Source of the DNA: Deltaproteobacteria bacterium
GTDB taxonomy: Bacteria; Desulfobacterota; Binatia; UTPRO1
DNA: 42,349 nt
Direction: 5' to 3'
Assembly (NCBI GenBank): GCA_020848745.1
Contig: JADLHM010000043.1
Span: 1-42,349 of the forward strand
Shown: positions 4,349 to 32,010 of the stretch, one piece after another
Numbering within the stretch: the first letter of the stretch is position 1
How the letters are laid out: each line of letters begins with the position of its first letter
Position numbers and translations under genes: made by a program
Notes under the pieces: generated by a model
What the model was told of the DNA's origin: nothing
The model's database searches: none
Seen by the model: only the letters and a program-made list of their open reading frames with translations

Positions 4349-5386
4349 CTACGACTGTCCCGCCTCGAGCGATTCCCAGGCCGTTTCCGCCGTACGCGGA
4401 AGGTGCGCACGCAGCGCTTTCAGGCCCCGACCGAAGAGGCGTCGCGCCGACTTCGGCAATGCATCGACCGCCTCGCCCAAGGCGCCAGGGAATTGCTCGG
4501 TGAGCGCATCGACCAGGACGGCGGCTTGCTGGAGATCCTTACCGGTCTTGGCGCCGGCGGAGCCGCGTAGTTGTGAAACCAAGATCTTGTGGGTCGCGTA
4601 GCGTTCCGCTGCTGGAATGCGCACCTCGGCCACGCCGTGCGCGCTGAGGATGGGGACCATCTGAGAAGGACCGAGCAGGTACGCGAGATACGGGAGACCG
4701 GTCGCGTGCGCTTGGAGCTCGGGCACCGGGATGACCGGGTACTTCTCGTTCTTCGACGGCACGAGCAAGTCGACGCGAAATCGTGACACCCCGCGCTCTT
4801 TGAACGAGACGGCGGGCGCACGGCGATCGAGCTGCGGTACCTCGACGAACTCGACCCCACTCTCGCGAAGCATCCCGAGGAAGCTCGGAACCTCGGGCAG
4901 TGCGAGACGCTCGCCGCGGGCGATGTCGACGTCTTCGGTCGCATAGGCGACGGCACGCACACCGAGGGCATTCAGGAGCGCGCCATACGCATGCGTTCCG
5001 ATGAGGAAGCCGCCGGCTCGGAAGACGCCACGATTGTGCAGGCTCGCGAGCGTGAAGAACGCTTTCTTGTCGACGGTGGCGTAGCCCGAGCGCGCGAGCA
5101 GCCGCACACTCGCGATGGCGGCATTGGCCGACGCGATCTGTAGGCGAAGGTTTTGGACACCGGCCGCCGACTCGGAATCATCGGTTTTCCCGACGTACTG
5201 TTCCCGCCGCGCGCCGCTCGCATCGGAGTAGCGGCGGACCCAGAAACGCGTCCCCTCGGCATTGGTACGTTCGGCAATCGTCCCGGGTGTGCCGAGAAGC
5301 ACCACCGGAGTTTCGGATGCCTGACGCGCGAGCTCGCTGAAGACGAGAAACAACGCGCGTTCGTGCGGTTTGGTCAGATGGAACAT
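4349..5386 (-). CDS. GSU2403-like nucleotidyltransferase-fold protein (NTP_transf_8)
   Basis: A 345-residue protein when started at ATG 5386 (MFHLTKPHERALFLVFSEL). This start has a GGGAGG Shine-Dalgarno six bases upstream; in-frame alternatives are ATG 5425 and TTG 5434. The nucleotidyltransferase core is visible: FLIGTHAYGALLNALGVR with the G-[ST] loop, ATEDVDIARG carrying the D-x-D pair, and FRVDLLVP with a third acidic residue. The C-terminal half is helical (KTGKDLQQAAVLVDALTEQF). The family resembles AbiEii/MNT-type nucleotidyltransferases, but its function is not established. The start region overlaps a four-copy TATCCCAC repeat, so tight control is likely. No partner gene is adjacent. 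Confidence 0.75.
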   Translation of the reverse strand: MFHLTKPHERALFLVFSELARQASETPVVLLGTPGTIAERTNAEGTRFWVRRYSDASGARREQYVGKTDDSESAAGVQNLRLQIASANAAIASVRLLARSGYATVDKKAFFTLASLHNRGVFRAGGFLIGTHAYGALLNALGVRAVAYATEDVDIARGERLALPEVPSFLGMLRESGVEFVEVPQLDRRAPAVSFKERGVSRFRVDLLVPSKNEKYPVIPVPELQAHATGLPYLAYLLGPSQMVPILSAHGVAEVRIPAAERYATHKILVSQLRGSAGAKTGKDLQQAAVLVDALTEQFPGALGEAVDALPKSARRLFGRGLKALRAHLPRTAETAWESLEAGQS

Positions 5387-5455
5387 ATCCCACCTCCCAT
5401 GAGAAGGTGGGATATGTTTTGTCATATCCCACAACGTACGGTCAAGTGGGATACG
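5382..5455. promoter_or_regulatory. Four-copy TATCCCAC operator-like repeat overlapping a start codon
   Basis: A perfect 14-bp inverted repeat (AACATATCCCACCT at 5382-5395 and its complement at 5405-5418, 9-base loop) is followed by a second dyad (CATATCCCAC at 5423-5432, GTGGGATACG at 5446-5455, one mismatch). All four arms share TATCCCAC. On the minus strand the first hairpin contains both the GGGAGG Shine-Dalgarno and the ATG of the nucleotidyltransferase gene. A TTGACC at 5440-5445 could be a -35. It could act as a DNA operator for a repressor or as an RNA hairpin that blocks translation. Confidence 0.65.
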
Positions 5456-17763: not shown

Positions 17764-20700
17764 ATGGCCAGCGACCATATCCAGATCCGAGGCGCCCGTC
17801 AGCACAATCTGCGGGGCATCGACGTCGACATTCCGCTGCACCAGCTCACGGTCGTGACGGGGGTGAGCGGCTCCGGCAAGTCCACGCTCGCCTTCGACGT
17901 CCTCTACGCGGAAGGCCAGCGGCGCTACGTGGAGAGCTTCTCGACCTACACGCGGCAGTTCCTCGAGCGCATGGAGAAGCCCGACGTGGACCACGTCGGC
18001 GGCATCCCTCCCGCGGTCGCGATCGACCAGCGGCGGCCGGTGACCACGTCGCGCTCGACCGTGGGCACCGTCACCGAGATCCACGATCACCTGAAGCTGC
18101 TGTTCGCCAAGCTCGGCGTGCTGCAGTGCCGGCGCTGCGGCGCGCGCGTGGAGCGCGCCACGCCGACCGGCGTCTGCGAAACCCTGCTGCGGGAGCGGTC
18201 CGGAGCGGCGGTCTTCCTCGGCTTTCCGTTCCCGCTGCCCGACCTGCCGTGGGGAGAGCTCGTGGCGGCGCTCGCCGGCCAGGGCTTCACCCGCGCCCTC
18301 GTCGACGGCGAGGTCCACGCTCTCGAGACGCTGGCGACTGCGCCGGCGGGCCCGATCGACATCCTCGTGGATCGCCTCGTCTGCAAGCGCGAGTCGCGCG
18401 CCCGGCTCGTCGCCTCGATCGAGCAGGCGCTCGCCTACGGCAAGGGCCGCATGTGGGTCGCGAGCCTCGACAGCAGGAGCCGGCGGGAGTACGGCGCCGC
18501 CCTCGCCTGCCTGCCGTGCGGCATCGTCTATCGCGACCCCACGCCGAACCTCTTCTCCTTCAACAGCCCGCTCGGGGCGTGCGACGACTGCCGCGGCTTC
18601 GGCCGCGTCATCGACCTCGACCTCGACCTCGTGATCCCGGACGCCGGGCGAACGCTCGAGGGCGGCGCCATCAAGCCCTGGACGACGCCCTCGACCAGCG
18701 AGGAGCGCCGCGGGCTCCTCGCGTTCTGTCGCCGCCGCAAGATCCCCGTCGACGTGCCGTTCGTCCACCTCGGGCCCGAGCAGCGCCGCCTCGTGGAGGA
18801 CGGGGACGAGCGCTTCTTCGGGATCCGCGGCTGGTTCCGCTGGCTCGAGCGGAAGACCTACAAGATGCACGTGCGCGTGCTCCTGTCGCGCTATCGCTCG
18901 TACCGGATCTGTCCCGCCTGCGGCGGCAGCCGCGTGAAGCCGGACGCGCTCGATTACCGCGTCGCCGAGCGCTCGATCGCCGATGTGAACCGCATGAACG
19001 TCGAGGAGGCGCTGGCGTTCTTCTCGGGCCTCGCGGTCGATCCCGAGAAGGATCCGGCGGCGGCGCTCGTCGCGGGCGAGATCCGGTCGCGCCTCGGTTA
19101 TCTCCTCGAGGTGGGTCTCGGCTACCTGACGCTCGACCGCCAGTCGCGCACGCTCTCCGGCGGCGAGCTCGAGCGTGTCGATCTCACCACCGCCGTCGGG
19201 TCCTCGCTCGTGAACACGCTCTACGTGCTCGACGAGCCGTCGATCGGCCTGCACCCGCGCGACAGCGCGCGGCTGGTCGGAATCATGCGCAACCTGTGCG
19301 CGCGCAAGAACACGGTGGTCGTCGTCGAGCACGATCCCGAGATCATCATGGCCGCGGATCACGTGATCGACATGGGGCCCGGCGCGGGAACGGCCGGGGG
19401 CGGCATCGTCGCCGCGGGGCCGGTCGCCGCGGTCGCCGCCGACCCGGCGTCGCTCACCGGACGGTACCTGTCGGGGGCGCGCCGCATCCCGACGCCTGTC
19501 CGCCGCAGTCCGCCGAACCGCGCGCTCGCGCTCACGATCCGGAACGCGCGCGCGAACAACCTGCGCGGCATCGACGTCACGATCCCGCTCGCGCGCATGG
19601 TGTGCATCACGGGCGTCTCGGGATCCGGCAAGAGCACGCTCGTCGAGGAGGTGCTGTATCGCGGCCTGCTCCGTCGCCGCGGCCTGCCGACCGCCCCGCC
19701 CGGGCTCTGCGACGGCATCGACGGCGCCGAGAAGATCGCCGAGGTGATCTTCGTCGATCAGGCGCCGATCGGCTCGACGCCACGCGCCAACGCCGCCACG
19801 TACACCAAGATGTTCGACGGCGTCCGCCGGCTCTTCGCCGCGACGGACCAGGCGCGTCTCCTCGGCTTCACCGCCGCCACGTTCTCGTTCAACGTCGAGG
19901 GCGGCCGCTGCGAGACGTGTCGCGGCGACGGCTTCGAGCAGATCGAGATGCAGTTCCTCTCGGACGTGTTGCTGGTCTGCCCGGCCTGCCACGGACGGCG
20001 CTACAACCCCGACGTCCTCGAGGTGCGCTATCGCGAGCGCACGATCGCGGACGTGTTGGGCCTGACGGTCCGCGAGGCGCTCGAGTTCTTCGCGGACCGG
20101 CCCGACATCCTGCAGGCACTCCAGCCGCTCGTGGACGTCGGGCTCGAATACCTCGGCCTCGGCCAGCCGCTGAGCACGCTCTCCGCGGGCGAATCGCAGC
20201 GCATCAAGCTCGCCGCGCACCTCGGGCACGACACCAAGGCGCACACGCTGTTCGTCTTCGACGAGCCGACGACGGGGCTGCACTTCGCCGACATCGAGCG
20301 GCTGCTCGGCGCCTTTGCCAAGCTCACCGAACGCGGCCATTCCCTCCTGATCGTCGAGCACAACGTCGAGGTCATCAAATGCGCCGATCACGTGATCGAC
20401 CTCGGGCCCGAAGGCGGCGACGGCGGCGGCGCGGTGGTCGCCGTCGGGACGCCGGAGGCGGTGGCGCGATGCGCGGCCTCCCACACCGGGCGCTTCCTCG
20501 CGCCCGTGCTCGCGGCCGAGCCGCCGGCGGCGGCGCCGCCGGTCGGCGCGCCACCGCCGGCCGGCCATGACCGCGACACGATCCGCATCGTCGGAGCCCG
20601 CGAGCACAACCTGCGGGACCTGAGCCTCGAGCTGCCGCGCGACCGCATGATCGTCGTGACGGGACTCTCCGGGTCCGGCAAGTCGACGCTCGCCTTCGAC

Positions 20701-23412
20701 GTGGTGTTCGCCGAGGGGCAGCGCCGGTACCTCGAGAGCCTGTCGACGTACGTACGCCAGTTCATGGACGTGCTGCCGCGGCCGGACGTCGACTTCGTCG
20801 CCGGTATCCCGCCGACGATCGCGATCGAGCAGCGCCTGAGCCGCGGCGGTCGGAAGTCGACGGTCGCGACGGTGACGGAGGTGGCGCACTATCTCCGCCT
20901 GTTGTTCGCGAAGGTGGGCGTGCAACACTGCGTCGGCTGCGACCGGTCGATCCGGCCGCTGCCCCGGGGTGAGATCGCGACGCGGCTCGCCGAGCGCGTC
21001 GGCGGCGGGGCGGCGGTCCTTCTCGCGCCCGTCGTGCGCGGGCGCAAGGGGTTCCACCGCGACGTCCTGCGCGCGGCGCGGCGGCTGCGCTACACGCACG
21101 TGCGCGTCGACGGCGCGGTCCTGCCGCTCGACCCGCTGCCCGACCTCGATCGCTACACCGAGCACGACGTCGATGTGCTGGTGGGCCGCGTGCCGGGCGG
21201 ACGCGGCGCCGAGCGCTTCACGGCGCCGGTCGCCGAGGCGCTGCGGCTCGGCGCCGGTGTCGTCGTCGCGCTCGCGGGCGGGCGCGAGCACGTGTTCAGC
21301 GAGCGGTTGTTCTGCGCGCCCTGCGGCCTCGGCTACGAGGTGCTCGACCCCCGGCTCTTCTCGTTCAACAGCCGGCAGGGCGCCTGTCCGGAGTGCCAGG
21401 GGCTCGGAACCCGGATCGAGATCGACGAGGAGGCCGTCGTCGCCGATCCGGCGCGCTCGCTCCGCGACGGTGCCATCCCCGCGCTCGCGGAGCTCGGTCT
21501 CGGGAGCGAGGAGCGACGGCTCCTGCGCGCGGTGCAGGGCGTCGGCATCGCGGTCGACCGCCCCTTCGGGCGGCTGACCGCGCGGCAACGCCGACTCGTG
21601 CTCGAGGGCGACGGCAAGAAGATCGACGGGGTGTTGCCGCTCCTGCGCGCCCACGGCTTCTACGAGGAGAGCGCGGAAGGCGGCGCCGCCGGGGAGGCGA
21701 TCGTCGCCGACGCGATGCGCCCGTACGTCGCGCTCCAGGCCTGTCCGGGATGCGCGGGGACGCGGCTCGTGCCACGGGCACGGGCGGTGCGGGTGCTCGA
21801 CCGGACGTTCCCGGAGCTGACCGCGATGACCGTCGACGAGTGCGCGGTGGCGCTCGGCGAGTGGCGCTTCGGCACGCGCGAAGCGGCGATCGTCCGCGAC
21901 CTGCTCGCCGAGGTGCGCCCGCGGCTCGCGTTCCTCGCGACCGTCGGTCTCGGCTACCTGACCCTCGACCGCAGCGCGGACACCCTGTCCGGCGGCGAGG
22001 CGCAGCGCATCCGCCTCGCGGCCCAGCTCGGCGCGAACCTCCGCGGCGCGTGCTACGTGCTCGACGAGCCGACGATCGGCCTGCACCCGCGCGACAACGC
22101 ACGGCTCCTCGAGTCGCTGCGGACGCTCGTGGAGCGACGTAACACGGTCCTCGTCGTCGAGCACGACGAGGCGACGATCGCGGCCGCCGACCTCGTGGTC
22201 GACCTCGGTCCGGGCGCGGGTCGAGACGGCGGCGCGCTCGTGGCGCTGGGCACGCCCGCCGAGATCGCGGCGGACCCCCGCTCCCTCACCGGGCGCTATC
22301 TCCGCGGGGGCCGCGAGCGCGGTCGGCCGCCTCGCCCGACCGACGGTCCCCGGCTCACGGTTCGGGACGCGACGGCCAACAACTTGAAACACCTGACGGT
22401 GGACGTCCCGCTCGGAGCGTGGACGTGCGTGACCGGGGTTTCGGGCTCCGGCAAGAGCACCCTCGTCAAGGACGTGCTCTACTGCGGCCTGCGCCGGGCG
22501 AAGGGGCTGACCGCGCCGCGTCCCGGGGCGCACCGGGCGATCACCGGCCACGAGGCCATCGAGCGCGTCATCGAGGTCGACCAGAGCCCGATCGGACGCA
22601 CGCCCCGCTCGATCCCGGCCTCGTACGTCGGGTTCTGGGACGAGATCCGTCGCCTCTTCGCGGGGACGGCGGCCGCCCGCGCGCGCGGGTACGCGCCGGG
22701 GCGGTTCTCCTTCAACGTCGCCGACGGTCGGTGCGACGCGTGCGCCGGCCAAGGTCGGATCCGGGTGCAGATGAGCTTCCTCCCCGAGACGTCCGTCGCC
22801 TGCGAGGCGTGCGGTGGCCGGCGGTTCACCGCGGAGACGCTCGCGGTCACCTGGGCCGGACGCTCGATCGCCGACGTGCTCGACGCGACCGTCGAGGAGG
22901 CGGCCGGGATCTTCGCGGCGGTGCCCGTGATCGCGCGGCCGCTCGCGGTCCTGGTCGAGCTCGGGCTCGGGTACCTGACGCTCGGACAGCCGAGCAACAC
23001 GCTGTCCGGGGGGGAAGCGCAGCGGATCAAGCTCGCCTCCGAGCTCGGCCGGAGCGGTGCGGGTCGCACGCTCTTCGTCCTCGACGAGCCCACGACCGGC
23101 CTCCACTTCGCCGACGTCGAACGGCTGATCCACGCCTTCCATCGCCTGGTCGACCAGGGGCACACCCTGGTCGTCGTGGAGCACAACCTCGACGTGCTGC
23201 GTGCCGCCGACCATCTCATCGATCTCGGTCCCGAGGCCGCGGCCAACGGGGGCGAGATCGTCGCGAGCGGCCGTCCAGAAGATCTGGTTGCGCGGCCCGG
23301 GCGATCCCATACGGCCCGGTGGCTCCGACGACCGGCGGGCATGTCGGGTGGATCGCTGCCCTCGTTCGGTACGGCTGTCGAGGTGAGACAATCTGGCGCA
23401 GATTTTTCTTGA
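17764..23412 (+). CDS. uvrA: Dual-size (tandem) UvrA, excinuclease ABC subunit A
   Basis: 1882 residues, about twice normal UvrA, with four ABC modules. Walker A motifs lie near 33, 615, 965 and 1557. Zinc fingers are present in each half (CLPCG...CDDC and CETC...CPAC in the first; CAPCG...CPEC and CDAC...CEAC in the second). Signature motifs differ between halves: the second has two perfect LSGGEAQRI, the first has LSGGELERV (about 464) and LSAGESQRI (about 806). The second half keeps the [10 protein letters not shown] block of the UvrB-binding region, which is diverged in the first ([14 protein letters not shown]). UvrA scans DNA for damage and loads UvrB. Chlamydiae also have a dual-size UvrA. 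The halves join by an Ala/Pro-rich linker near 917-940. Confidence 0.92.
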
Positions 23413-23546
23413 CAGTCCGACGTGAAGAAGGCTACCTCTGCCCGCGGTAGCAGACGGCGGAGTGGTGGTGGCGCCAACCTCGCTCCGCGGAGTCGTCGCG
23501 CCGCTCTGCCGGGTCGTTTCCTTTCAGCACCAACGGGTCATCCATA

Positions 23547-23828
23547 ATGCACGAGATCCACGCCGCATGGGCGGTCGCCGACGCTGCTGTTGCCGATGCT
23601 TCTCCCGAGGTGCTCGAGGAGGAGCCGGTGACGTTCGAATTCGAGGGCTCGTCGGACCACACGATCGCGGAAGCGGTGCGCCGCGCCCTCTCGCACGCGT
23701 CGACGTCGCTTCGGACGCTCGACGGCGCCGGGGTGCTGGTGATTCCCGAGATCGACCGGCGTGCCAACCGTCCGCGTTTCCGGGTCACGCTGCGCGTCTC
23801 GGCGCAGAGCGAGCCGACGCCGAGCTGA
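23547..23828 (+). CDS. Dodecin-like small protein
   Basis: 93 residues. The C-terminal two thirds follow the dodecin pattern: a strand VTFEFEGSSDHTIAEAVRRA with the first helix, then ALSHASTSLRTLDGAGVLVI, and a final strand RFRVTLRVSAQ. Dodecins assemble as dodecamers that store flavins or CoA. Most have a tryptophan after R-x-L-D that stacks on flavin; here it is Gly-Ala, so flavin binding of the usual kind is doubtful. The first 25 residues (Ala/Asp/Glu-rich) are an addition. It lies 134 bases after uvrA; a TTGACA at 23411-23416 may belong to its promoter. Confidence 0.6.
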   Translation: MHEIHAAWAVADAAVADASPEVLEEEPVTFEFEGSSDHTIAEAVRRALSHASTSLRTLDGAGVLVIPEIDRRANRPRFRVTLRVSAQSEPTPS

Positions 23829-23882
23829 CGCGCCGCCACTGGGGGAGCGGGCGGTCAACCTCGCGTGAAGCCGAGGGCCGAG

Positions 23883-23902
23883 TCATCCACAGCTGTGGAT
23901 AA
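23883..23902. repeat. Palindrome made of two inverted DnaA-box-like sites
   Basis: ATCCACAGCTGTGGAT (23885-23900) is a perfect 16-bp palindrome. With flanks it contains TTATCCACA, the DnaA-box consensus, on the minus strand (23894-23902), and TCATCCACA, one mismatch, on the plus strand (23883-23891), two bases apart. It sits between the stops of two convergent genes, where a hairpin terminator is another reading. Confidence 0.5.
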
Positions 23903-23919
23903 CCAGCCCCGGACGCGCG

Positions 23920-24234
23920 CTACTGGCCGGAGATCGGATAGTTCGGCTCGCGCACGCAGTGCGCGCAACGACAGAGCGCCCGGAGTTCGTCGGCCATGAA
24001 GAACGTCTCGTGCTCGTCGGCCCAGGCGATGAAGAGCGTACCGTCGCCGACCGTGCGTACGAGGGCGACCTCGCAGTGCGAGGGTCCGACCTCCGGTGGC
24101 GCGGCGAGGCACGCGTTGCAGGGACAGGCGGTGCGGAGGTGGCGGTGCGGCAGGATGCTGTCGTGCCCGTCGCTCCAGTCGATGCCGACGGCGTATCGTC
24201 CCACCTCTCGAAGCCGCTTGATCGTCGGTGCCAT
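23920..24234 (-). CDS. DUF971 domain protein
   Basis: 104 residues. After PTIKRLREVGRYAVGIDWSD comes the conserved GHDSILPHRHLR and the C-x-C-x-x-C cluster CPCNAC, then TLFIAWADEHETFFMADELR and CRCAHCVREP near the end. DUF971 is the N-terminal-like domain of gamma-butyrobetaine hydroxylase-type proteins, found alone in many bacteria near iron-sulfur or cofactor genes. The two Cys clusters suggest metal binding. Its role is not established. It starts 65 bases from the divergent start of the exported OB-like gene. Confidence 0.8.
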   Translation of the reverse strand: MAPTIKRLREVGRYAVGIDWSDGHDSILPHRHLRTACPCNACLAAPPEVGPSHCEVALVRTVGDGTLFIAWADEHETFFMADELRALCRCAHCVREPNYPISGQ

Positions 24235-24299
24235 GGGCCGGATCTACTATGCGGGCGCGATTCTTGACAGCGCCGAGCCCCGCCGGGAGGATGCAGCGC

Positions 24300-24905
24300 A
24301 TGCGAATCGGCCGACGCGCGCTCTCGGCTGCTGGGCTCGTGCTGCTGGCCGCGAGCGCGGTGCGCGCCGCCGATCCGGACGCACCTGCGGCGGCGGCGTC
24401 TCCCGCGCCTCCGGCGGCCTCGGCACCTGGCATCCTCGTGGCAGGGAGCCGTGCGGGCGACTACGTGGGACGGCAGGTCACGGTCGAGGGCCGGGTCGCC
24501 GCGATCCACGAGTCGCCCCTCGCCACCGTGGTCGCGTTCAGTCCGAACTTCGCGGGGTTCACGGCGACGATCCTGGCCGGCGATCGCGACAAGTTCCCGC
24601 GGGACCTCGAGGCGCGCATCCGTGACCACGTCGTGCGCGTGAGCGGTACCGTTACGGCCTACCGGGGAAAACCGGAGATGGCGCTCCACGATCCCTCACA
24701 GCTCGTGCTCGCGCCGCCGCCCGCGCCGGGGTCGGTCGCCGCCCGTCCGGCAGCGCCGACGGCGACGCCGGACGGGACCGTCGAGGAGCTGCGCCGGGCC
24801 CTCACCCGCGTCGAGTCACGGCTCGACGCGATCGAGAGCCGCCTCGGGACGCTCGAGGAGGCCGGGGCCGGCGACGACGGCGGCGAGCCGGCGCCCGGGC
24901 GCTAG
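24300..24905 (+). CDS. Exported OB-fold-like protein with C-terminal coiled coil
   Basis: 201 residues from ATG 24300, chosen because GGGAGG ends nine bases upstream; ATG 24291 is closer than usual to it. A signal peptide (RRALSAAGLVLLAASAVRA) leads to an Ala/Pro linker and then a beta-rich core (YVGRQVTVEGRVAAIHESPL, then FTATILAGDRDKFP, VVRVSGTVTAYRGKPEMALH). This is the pattern of exported OB-fold domains. A short C-terminal coiled coil (VEELRRALTRVESRLDAIES) follows a second Ala/Pro linker. It probably acts in the periplasm; its ligand is unknown. Confidence 0.7.
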   Translation: MRIGRRALSAAGLVLLAASAVRAADPDAPAAAASPAPPAASAPGILVAGSRAGDYVGRQVTVEGRVAAIHESPLATVVAFSPNFAGFTATILAGDRDKFPRDLEARIRDHVVRVSGTVTAYRGKPEMALHDPSQLVLAPPPAPGSVAARPAAPTATPDGTVEELRRALTRVESRLDAIESRLGTLEEAGAGDDGGEPAPGR

Positions 24906-24911
24906 AAACTT

Positions 24912-25790
24912 CTAGTCCGCCGCGGCGCCGAGGAAGTCGAGGATCAAGGCGTTCACGCGCGCCGGGTCCTCCTGGTGCAGGAAGTGCCCCGTGCCCGGCA
25001 CGATCTCGACACGCAGGCCGCGCGGAAAGTACGCGGCCATGCCCTCGACCAGCTCGGCGCTCATGCAGCCGTCGTCGGCGCCGTGCAGCACGAGCCCGGG
25101 CACCTCGATCGGATCGCTCATCATGCGGTTCTGAAGCGCTGCGAGCGCGGGATCCTGACGGGTCGGATCGAACATGGCGCGGTAGTAGCCGAGCGCGGCC
25201 GAAGCGACGCCCGGCTGTCGGAAGGTTTCCTTGAGCGCCGCCATCTCGGCGGCGGGGAGGCGCCAGCCCGGCGACCAGTCGCGCCAGAGCCGGTCGACGA
25301 ATGCGTAGTCGTCGTGGGCGATCGCGATGTCGGCGAACGGCGTCTGGAAGAAGAACATGTACCAGGATCGGCGCTGCTGGTCGTAGTTGGTCATGAAGGC
25401 CGCCGCGACCTGCGCGCCGTAGGGCACCGCGGCGGTCACGAGCTTTCGCACGCGACCGGGCGCCGCCAACACCGCGCCGTACGCCGCCAGCGCGCCCCAG
25501 TCGTGCCCGAAGACGATCGCGTCCTCGTAGCCGAGCGCTTCGATGAGCGCCACGACGTCCTCGGCGAGCGCGGCCGTCTGGTAGTGGCCGTCGGGCGCCG
25601 CACCCGTCGGGGCGTAGCCGCGCATCGCCGGCGCGACCGCGCGGTAGCCGGCGGCGGCGAGGGCCGGCAGCTGGTGGCGGAACGAGCGCGCGTGATCGGG
25701 AAACCCATGCAGGCAGAGCACGAGGGGCCCCTCCCCCTCCTCCAGCGTGTGGAACGTCATGCCGCGTACCTGTACCGTACCGGTCTTCAT
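24912..25790 (-). CDS. Alpha/beta hydrolase, epoxide-hydrolase-like
   Basis: 292 residues. LVLCLHGFPDHARSFRHQLP has the HGFP oxyanion motif. The nucleophile elbow is VFGHDWGALA with Asp (D97), as in epoxide hydrolases and haloalkane dehalogenases rather than Ser hydrolases. The acid is in VLHGADDGCM and the catalytic His in VPGTGHFLHQEDP. The cap region carries the WYMFFFQTPF and Tyr residues expected of an epoxide hydrolase. It has a strong AGGAGGT Shine-Dalgarno seven bases upstream of ATG 25790. The physiological substrate cannot be predicted. Confidence 0.88.
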   Translation of the reverse strand: MKTGTVQVRGMTFHTLEEGEGPLVLCLHGFPDHARSFRHQLPALAAAGYRAVAPAMRGYAPTGAAPDGHYQTAALAEDVVALIEALGYEDAIVFGHDWGALAAYGAVLAAPGRVRKLVTAAVPYGAQVAAAFMTNYDQQRRSWYMFFFQTPFADIAIAHDDYAFVDRLWRDWSPGWRLPAAEMAALKETFRQPGVASAALGYYRAMFDPTRQDPALAALQNRMMSDPIEVPGLVLHGADDGCMSAELVEGMAAYFPRGLRVEIVPGTGHFLHQEDPARVNALILDFLGAAAD

Positions 25791-30765: not shown

Positions 30766-32010
30766 ATGTCCACGCCGCGGGTCGTGATCACGGGGATGGG
30801 GGGCGTGACGCCGATCGGTACCGGCATCGACGCCATCTGGGAGAGCGCGTGCGCCGGACGGTCGGGCATCGGACCGATCACGCTCTTCGATGCGTCCGAT
30901 CAGCAGTGTCGGATCGCGGGCGAGGTGCGCGGCTTCGAGGCCGGGCGCTGGATTCCGACGAAGCACTTGAAGCGCATGGACGACTTCGCGCGCTACGCCG
31001 TCGCCTCCTCCGTGATGGCCGTCGAGGACGCGAAGCTCGAGATTACGCCCGACAACTCGCGCCGGATCGGCGTGCTGCTCGGGAACAACGACGGCGGCGG
31101 GCGCACGATCTTTCGCACCGTGGCCGCGTTCCTGGCGAACGGTCCGGGCGCGGTGTCGCCGTTCTACATCACCGCCATCACCAGCAGCATGGGGGCAGCG
31201 CAGGTCGCGATCCGCCTCCAGGTGCGCGGGCCGAACTTCACGATCGGCAACGCCTGCGCGTCGGGGCTGAACGGGATCGGCGAGGCCTGGCGCTACATCC
31301 GCGACCGGACCTGCGACGTGGTGCTCGCGGGAGGCACCGACGCGCTCATCAACGGCACGGAGGTCGCCGGCTTCTCGAACTCGAAGGCGGTCTCCTTCCG
31401 CAACGACGAGCCCGAGAAGGCGAGTCGGCCCTTCGATCGCGATCGCGACGGCTTCGTGCTCTCGGAGGGCGCCGCCGTCGTGGTGGTCGAGTCGCTGGAG
31501 CACGCGCGGGCGCGGGGCGCGCGCATCTACGCCGAGGTCGTGGGCTACGCGACCGGCAGCGAGGCGTTCCACATCGCCGCGCCGCTGCCGGATGGAGTCG
31601 GCGTCGCGGCCTGCATGCAGGCCGCGATCGAGAGCGCCGGCATCGGGCCGGACGCGATCGACTACATCAACGCCCACGCCACTTCCACGCCGCTCGGCGA
31701 CGTGAACGAGACGCAAGGGATCAAGCTCGTGTTCGGGGAGCGCGCGCAGCGCATCCCGGTGAGCGCGACCAAGTCGATGACGGGACACCTGATCGGCGCC
31801 TCGGGCGCGCTCGAGGCGATGATCGCGGCGAAGACCCTCGCGACGGGGATCGTCACGCCGACCATCAACCTCGACCATCCGGATCCCGCGTGCGACCTCG
31901 ACTACGTGCCGCACGAGGCGCGGCGTGCGGACGTGCGGTACGCGCTCAGCAACTCGTTCGGGTTCGGCGGCGCCAACGCGTCGCTGGTGCTGCGACGATG
32001 GGACGGCTGA
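30766..32010 (+). CDS. fabF: Beta-ketoacyl-ACP synthase II (FabF-like)
   Basis: 414 residues with thiolase-fold KAS motifs. RVVITGMGGVTPIGTGIDAI is the start block. The active-site Cys is C164 in GNACASGLNGIG, and the two His lie in YINAHATSTPLGD and MTGHLIGASGALE. The end is NSFGFGGANASLVL. It elongates acyl-ACP chains with malonyl-ACP. The usual T-A-C-A is N-A-C-A here. It may be a specialised KAS: no fatty-acid genes (fabD, fabG, acpP) lie nearby. It overlaps the next gene by 13 bases. Confidence 0.88.
   Translation: MSTPRVVITGMGGVTPIGTGIDAIWESACAGRSGIGPITLFDASDQQCRIAGEVRGFEAGRWIPTKHLKRMDDFARYAVASSVMAVEDAKLEITPDNSRRIGVLLGNNDGGGRTIFRTVAAFLANGPGAVSPFYITAITSSMGAAQVAIRLQVRGPNFTIGNACASGLNGIGEAWRYIRDRTCDVVLAGGTDALINGTEVAGFSNSKAVSFRNDEPEKASRPFDRDRDGFVLSEGAAVVVVESLEHARARGARIYAEVVGYATGSEAFHIAAPLPDGVGVAACMQAAIESAGIGPDAIDYINAHATSTPLGDVNETQGIKLVFGERAQRIPVSATKSMTGHLIGASGALEAMIAAKTLATGIVTPTINLDHPDPACDLDYVPHEARRADVRYALSNSFGFGGANASLVLRRWDG

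Follow-up and report, generated by a model that had tools for sequence, protein, structure and literature searches.

A 20-bp palindrome at positions 23883–23902 of the window (the whole stretch of 42,349 nucleotides analyzed here, contig C43 of the genome G000), TCATCCACAGCTGTGGATAA, is read here, with a probability of about 0.6, as a putative DnaA-binding operator of the dnaA-promoter type that stands alone in this species. It consists of two inverted DnaA boxes, TCATCCACA-GC-TGTGGATAA, each with at most one mismatch to the consensus TTATCCACA: the first (23883–23891, forward strand) differs from it at one position, and the second (23894–23902, reverse strand) is a perfect copy, one of five in the genome. 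The boxes turn their CACA ends toward each other across a 2-bp spacer, and the consensus box and facing one-mismatch copy described in the original prediction were both located within these 20 bases. Its placement of the palindrome between convergent genes is likewise borne out, the pair lying in a 91-bp gap between the 3' ends of two ORFs. One encodes a dodecin-like protein of 93 amino acids (23547–23828, forward strand; Pfam PF07311, E 4.9e-5), and the other, which served as a syntenic marker, encodes a GBBH-like_N domain protein of 104 amino acids (23920–24234, reverse strand, ending at 23920; Pfam PF06155, E 7e-16). To the left of the dodecin-like ORF lies a gene for a UvrA-like protein of 1,882 amino acids with two tandem UvrA units (17764–23412, forward strand), identified by Pfam UvrA domains, in two stretches each, and by synteny. 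To the right of the pair there is only a short gap (23903–23919), in which an orphan gene of about 88 codons, present in two related genera, is absent.

The palindrome had been described as rare by chance, which stands for the inverted pair but not for its component boxes. Under a simple base-composition model, an inverted pair with a 2-bp spacing is expected about 7e-7 times per window and about 8e-5 times per genome. Counted genome-wide, the palindrome is single-copy: the pair is the sole TCCACANNTGTGGA in its own genome (4.88 Mb, 155 contigs), and even with up to three mismatches the pattern occurs in one place, the reversed control pattern in none. Single boxes with no more than one mismatch number two in the window, against a mean of 0.78 in shuffled sequences, 19 of 100 of which contain two or more; perfect single boxes number five in the whole genome and three for the reversed control, that is, without enrichment. 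The window also contains a perfect 24-bp palindrome, TCGCGGCCTGCATGCAGGCCGCGA, at 31604–31627 within a long ORF (30766–32010), and an inverted repeat with 10-bp arms, GTGGGATATGTTTTGTCATATCCCAC, at 5407–5432 in the first codons of a reverse-strand ORF (4349–5434).

Across the class, which is probably Binatia, the pair is associated with dnaA. The strict pattern TCCACANNTGTGGA was found at 78 sites in 73 of 148 class genomes, with one site each in 70 of the 73, and the reversed control pattern in three of the 148. For at least 56 of these 78, the position is immediately upstream of dnaA (1085–1243 bases before the DnaA C-terminal domain), which suggests that the class-wide pair before dnaA is a dnaA operator. 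Among the dnaA genes listed, 22 of the 78 strict sites had no match; four of these are the site of the window's family, two (in G042 and G044) have a dnaA-like gene by a separate search, and 16 are others. A looser search allowing up to three mismatches gave a match in 29 of 58 genomes, the window's own included, and tblastn placed dnaA next to the site, 28–86 bp away, at 22 of 28 representative loci of relatives. The six loci without dnaA are L019, L026, L011, which looks like a match inside coding sequence, and L032, L033, and L034, which are the family site itself. The strict pair is missing from 75 of the 148 class genomes, including five of five in f11, seven of seven in f15, and six of seven in f4; the dnaA operator is thus widespread in the class, not general.

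A search of GTDB genomes for exact TYATCCACAGCTGTGGATAA, which is the 20-mer allowing T or C as its second base, returned 114 stretches, 66 of them with dnaA. The middle of the site is 34–318 bp before dnaA in 53 of the 66, further upstream in three, and 1.6–5.2 kb away on the other side of dnaA in ten. For the 48 stretches without dnaA in the fetched piece, a crude ORF scan placed the site between divergent ORFs in 12, between convergent ORFs in eight, between tandem ORFs in 12, inside an ORF in nine, and at an edge in seven. Weaker traces precede some further dnaA genes: the three dnaA genes of G024, and dnaA2 in G000 and G003, each have upstream a best match over 18 positions with 4–6 mismatches and a runner-up with at least 8. 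In all of these it is a degraded inverted pair, with four mismatches of 18 for dnaA2 of G000 and G003. The 400 bp before dnaA1 of the same two genomes contain no such inverted pair. DnaA-like proteins number two to four per genome in f8 (G012, G017, G024, G031, G037, G044, and G051) and one or two in the window's family. With a degraded pair before each of the three in G024, several dnaA copies may share one control.

Within the window's family, conservation takes a different form from that elsewhere in the class, where the pair is mostly upstream of dnaA. TCCACANNTGTGGA occurs exactly once in four of the six family genomes (G000, G001, G004, and G005), always in the gap between the dodecin-like and GBBH-like_N genes, and the strict pattern is absent from dnaA in these four. 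The surroundings are shared: all six genomes have uvrA, dodecin, GBBH-like_N, a small OB-like ORF, alpha/beta hydrolase, FemAB-like, and clpA in this order, with two exceptions, G003, whose contig does not include uvrA, and G002, in which the OB-like ORF has no match. The GBBH-like_N protein was matched in all five family relatives, and the UvrA-like ORF over nearly its full length in G001, G002, G004, and G005. No TCCACANNTGTGGA was found anywhere in G002 or G003. At the family site, G003 has TTATCCACAGCTGTCGACAA, with one core change (TGTCGA); in G002 the dodecin-like and GBBH-like_N ORFs nearly touch, and both gap and site are deleted. The site is therefore dispensable in the window's genus, where it is kept in two of the three species examined (G000 and G001).

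Where the pair is kept, its core is far more similar between genomes than its surroundings. In eight cross-genus comparisons the 14-bp core is 86–100% identical, against 23–42% for the ungapped flanks (60 bases upstream and 40 downstream), and the core of G000 and G001 is identical to that of G005. Between G000 and G001, 19 consecutive bases over the pair, TCCACAGCTGTGGATAACC, are identical, while the same ungapped flanks show 62% identity upstream and 35% downstream. Beyond the core the outer arms drift, with CAATCCACAACTGTGGAAGA in G004 and a decayed outer arm (CCG) in G001; given this drift and the core change in G003, the affinity of the site for DnaA may be low in some species.

In the two related genera the pair is followed by a small gene. 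In G003, G004, and G005, 14–25 bp separate the pair from the start of an ORF of about 88 amino acids (start codons were chosen manually), so that the pair lies just upstream of a start codon in these three genomes; it does not in G000 or G001, and the gene itself is missing from G000, G001, and G002. Compared with the first member, the other two encoded proteins show 56% and 59% identity. Among the 148 class genomes, convincing matches were found in these three only: six genomes gave matches at E ≤0.01, and besides the three family genes these comprised three partial matches (E 5.7e-4 to 7.7e-3), which were set aside. The two members scanned belong to no Pfam family, the best matches in NCBIfam, PHROG, and PDB are weak (E 0.027, 0.22, and 0.014, respectively), and viral contigs contain no relative. 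A derivation of the gene from dnaA was rejected, the profile comparison giving a probability of 0.2%. A tree built from three proteins, without an outgroup, left loss and gain of the gene undecided. In ClpA trees, for which seven of eight outgroup genomes were used (G010 was left out, having a stop inside the match), G003 is outermost, with weak node support (0.549 in one tree, 62 in the other); this position weakly suggests that the orphan gene was lost in the window's genus rather than gained in the other two.

The palindrome does not lie at the likely origin of replication, judging from the position of dnaA, which is on other contigs, and from GC skew. The genome has two dnaA genes, on contigs C12 and C148. 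On C12, cumulative GC skew reaches its minimum of −739 in the 56–60 kb bin, where dnaA1 lies, then rises for about 40 kb, is about zero by 96 kb, and drops again; the window contig has only a weak skew turn near 16–24 kb (−68 to +152). With the strong turn at dnaA1, the window site was rejected as an origin. The ORFs after dnaA1 resemble dnaN and gyrB, and the gap after dnaA1 contains a TCATCCACA box together with the run TACTACTACTAG, which resembles a DnaA-trio. The 9-mer of the mismatched arm in the window pair thus recurs as a box of the likely origin. The two DnaA paralogues of this genome contain the motif segments DHSTVIHA and DHTTVLHA, which bear only indirectly on whether DnaA binds the pair. 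Elsewhere in the genome, two perfect TTATCCACA boxes lie 214 bp apart at C46:58071–58293, in an AT-richer gap beside a tRNA-Arg gene, and its flanks and one TGTGGATAA are also found in G003 (C48) and G004 (C57); this region was rejected as a second candidate origin, the skew falling steadily through it. In the single-contig genome G021, dnaA is closely followed by a likely origin with eight perfect DnaA boxes, of which four are spaced 11 bp apart (L066, 11024–11189).

That the palindrome is a DnaA site is, on these comparisons, well supported by inference, since dnaA directly follows the pair at no fewer than 56 of the 78 class sites and its TCATCCACA arm recurs after dnaA1. The palindrome would bind two DnaA molecules head to head and would belong to the same type of site as the inverted pair found about 30–90 bp before dnaA in many class genomes; in the window's family, the strict pair has its place between the dodecin-like and GBBH-like_N genes rather than at dnaA. 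In the two genera in which it just precedes the orphan gene, DnaA probably binds the promoter region, and bound DnaA probably represses or times the gene, which would then be tied to replication initiation. The window's genus lacks the gene but retains the pair, which would be either a relic operator or a lone DnaA-binding site. A simple scan of window positions 23000–25000 detected no sigma-70-like promoter. The sequence of the pair, its single copy, the synteny, the association with dnaA in the class, and where the gene is present or absent are observed; DnaA binding, regulation, and gene loss, as opposed to later gain, are what we infer from these sequences.

Such an operator has precedents. 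DnaA of Escherichia coli represses dnaA through a box at the dnaA promoter, and direct autoregulation is reported to occur in several other bacteria (PMC5835720, PMC8203912). The dnaA autoregulatory operators of E. coli, Bacillus subtilis, and others share with the present site the consensus DnaA boxes, with the class pair the position directly before dnaA, and with the three relatives that have the orphan gene the short distance to the start codon. They differ in that the family pair precedes an unrelated gene and, in the window's species, no gene at all; the pair is not directly upstream of dnaA in the window's genome. E. coli DnaA is reported to prefer box pairs 2–3 bp apart (PMC11317965), and with its two boxes 2 bp apart the window pair is, by analogy, probably bound by two DnaA molecules. 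The site prediction reported there combined tandem boxes, whereas those in the window are inverted.

Two other accounts of the pair are possible, each about a quarter as probable as the operator reading. One is a control site resembling DARS or datA, at which DnaA molecules bound head to head would exchange or hydrolyze their nucleotide and set the timing of initiation independently of any gene. The window site is isolated, lying between convergent genes at a distance from the likely origin, and E. coli K-12 has, in the bioD-uvrB gap that we take to be the location of DARS1, the arrangement TTATCCACT-ATTCC-TGTGGATAA, which is close to the window pair in form, with CACA ends facing, but has a gap of 5 bp rather than 2. 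Head-to-head boxes are given as characteristic of DARS (PMC10380432), and a three-box core is described for DARS1 and DARS2 (PMC4585315). The window boxes match that core in being head to head, with facing CACA ends, outside the origin; they depart from it in being a single pair with a 2-bp gap, and no third box with up to two mismatches was found in the stretches searched, 180 bp long in G000 and 210 bp in G001. The absence of the site from G002, and the fact that elsewhere in the class the pair is mainly a feature of dnaA promoters, also weigh against a DARS-like role. The other account, equally tentative, is a pure relic: an operator that outlasted its gene, no longer has a role, and has not yet been erased. 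It fits the absence of the orphan gene from all three genomes of the genus, the loss of the whole gap in G002, and the decayed outer arm in G001, but it is harder to reconcile with the 19 identical bases over the pair in G000 and G001, amid flanks of 62% and 35% identity, and with a core identical to that of G005.

The remaining alternatives are less probable. Titration of DnaA, raised in the original prediction, would make the site a sink that lowers free DnaA, as in Bacillus. The DnaA-binding regions of B. subtilis are, like the window site, intergenic, and a strong one lies where gcp and ydiF converge, downstream of both, but 10 sites are listed for that region (PMC4447404), against the two boxes of the window's single pair. 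With no more than five perfect boxes genome-wide, titration is conceivable but weak for a lone pair, and since the family comparison points rather to an operator, we think it improbable. The second suggestion of that prediction, a stem for termination, fared worse. The flanks in G000 extend the hairpin, with predicted energies of −17.1 and −24.5 kcal/mol on the two strands, as might be expected of a bidirectional terminator serving the convergent genes, but no terminator-like match was found in window positions 23000–25000 and no T run follows the stem. The extended stem, considered also as an RNA hairpin, is not kept in relatives: the three outer pairs of the palindrome are unpaired in three to four of five family sequences, with neither compensatory change nor covariation. 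Together with the lack of another copy in the genome and the position of the pair in relatives, mostly before dnaA and not at gene ends, this makes a terminator highly unlikely. Least probable of all, to the point of being negligible, is a chance palindrome: single boxes are common enough in shuffled sequences, but the expectation for the pair is about 8e-5 per genome and the pair recurs at this location in three genera.

Operators made of DnaA boxes are in themselves well known. In the papers searched, the exact letters of three versions of the palindrome returned nothing, and a search for Binatota together with DnaA returned nothing on DnaA; both the class-wide single-copy pair and the way it has been displaced to an orphan gene appear to be new. 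One may speculate further, with little confidence, that a dnaA operator became uncoupled from dnaA and was re-sited at a constant place in the chromosome, beside uvrA, as a single-copy, head-to-head DnaA switch, which would first have controlled a family-specific small protein possibly acting on replication initiation and then, once the gene was lost, have become a stand-alone DARS-like element. For the class, a single inverted pair of DnaA boxes, present in roughly half the genomes and usually before dnaA, is a clear signature. The orphan gene, with its operator that looks to be of the dnaA type, is a candidate lineage-specific replication factor, and the window's species offers what may be a natural example of an operator that persisted after its gene was lost.
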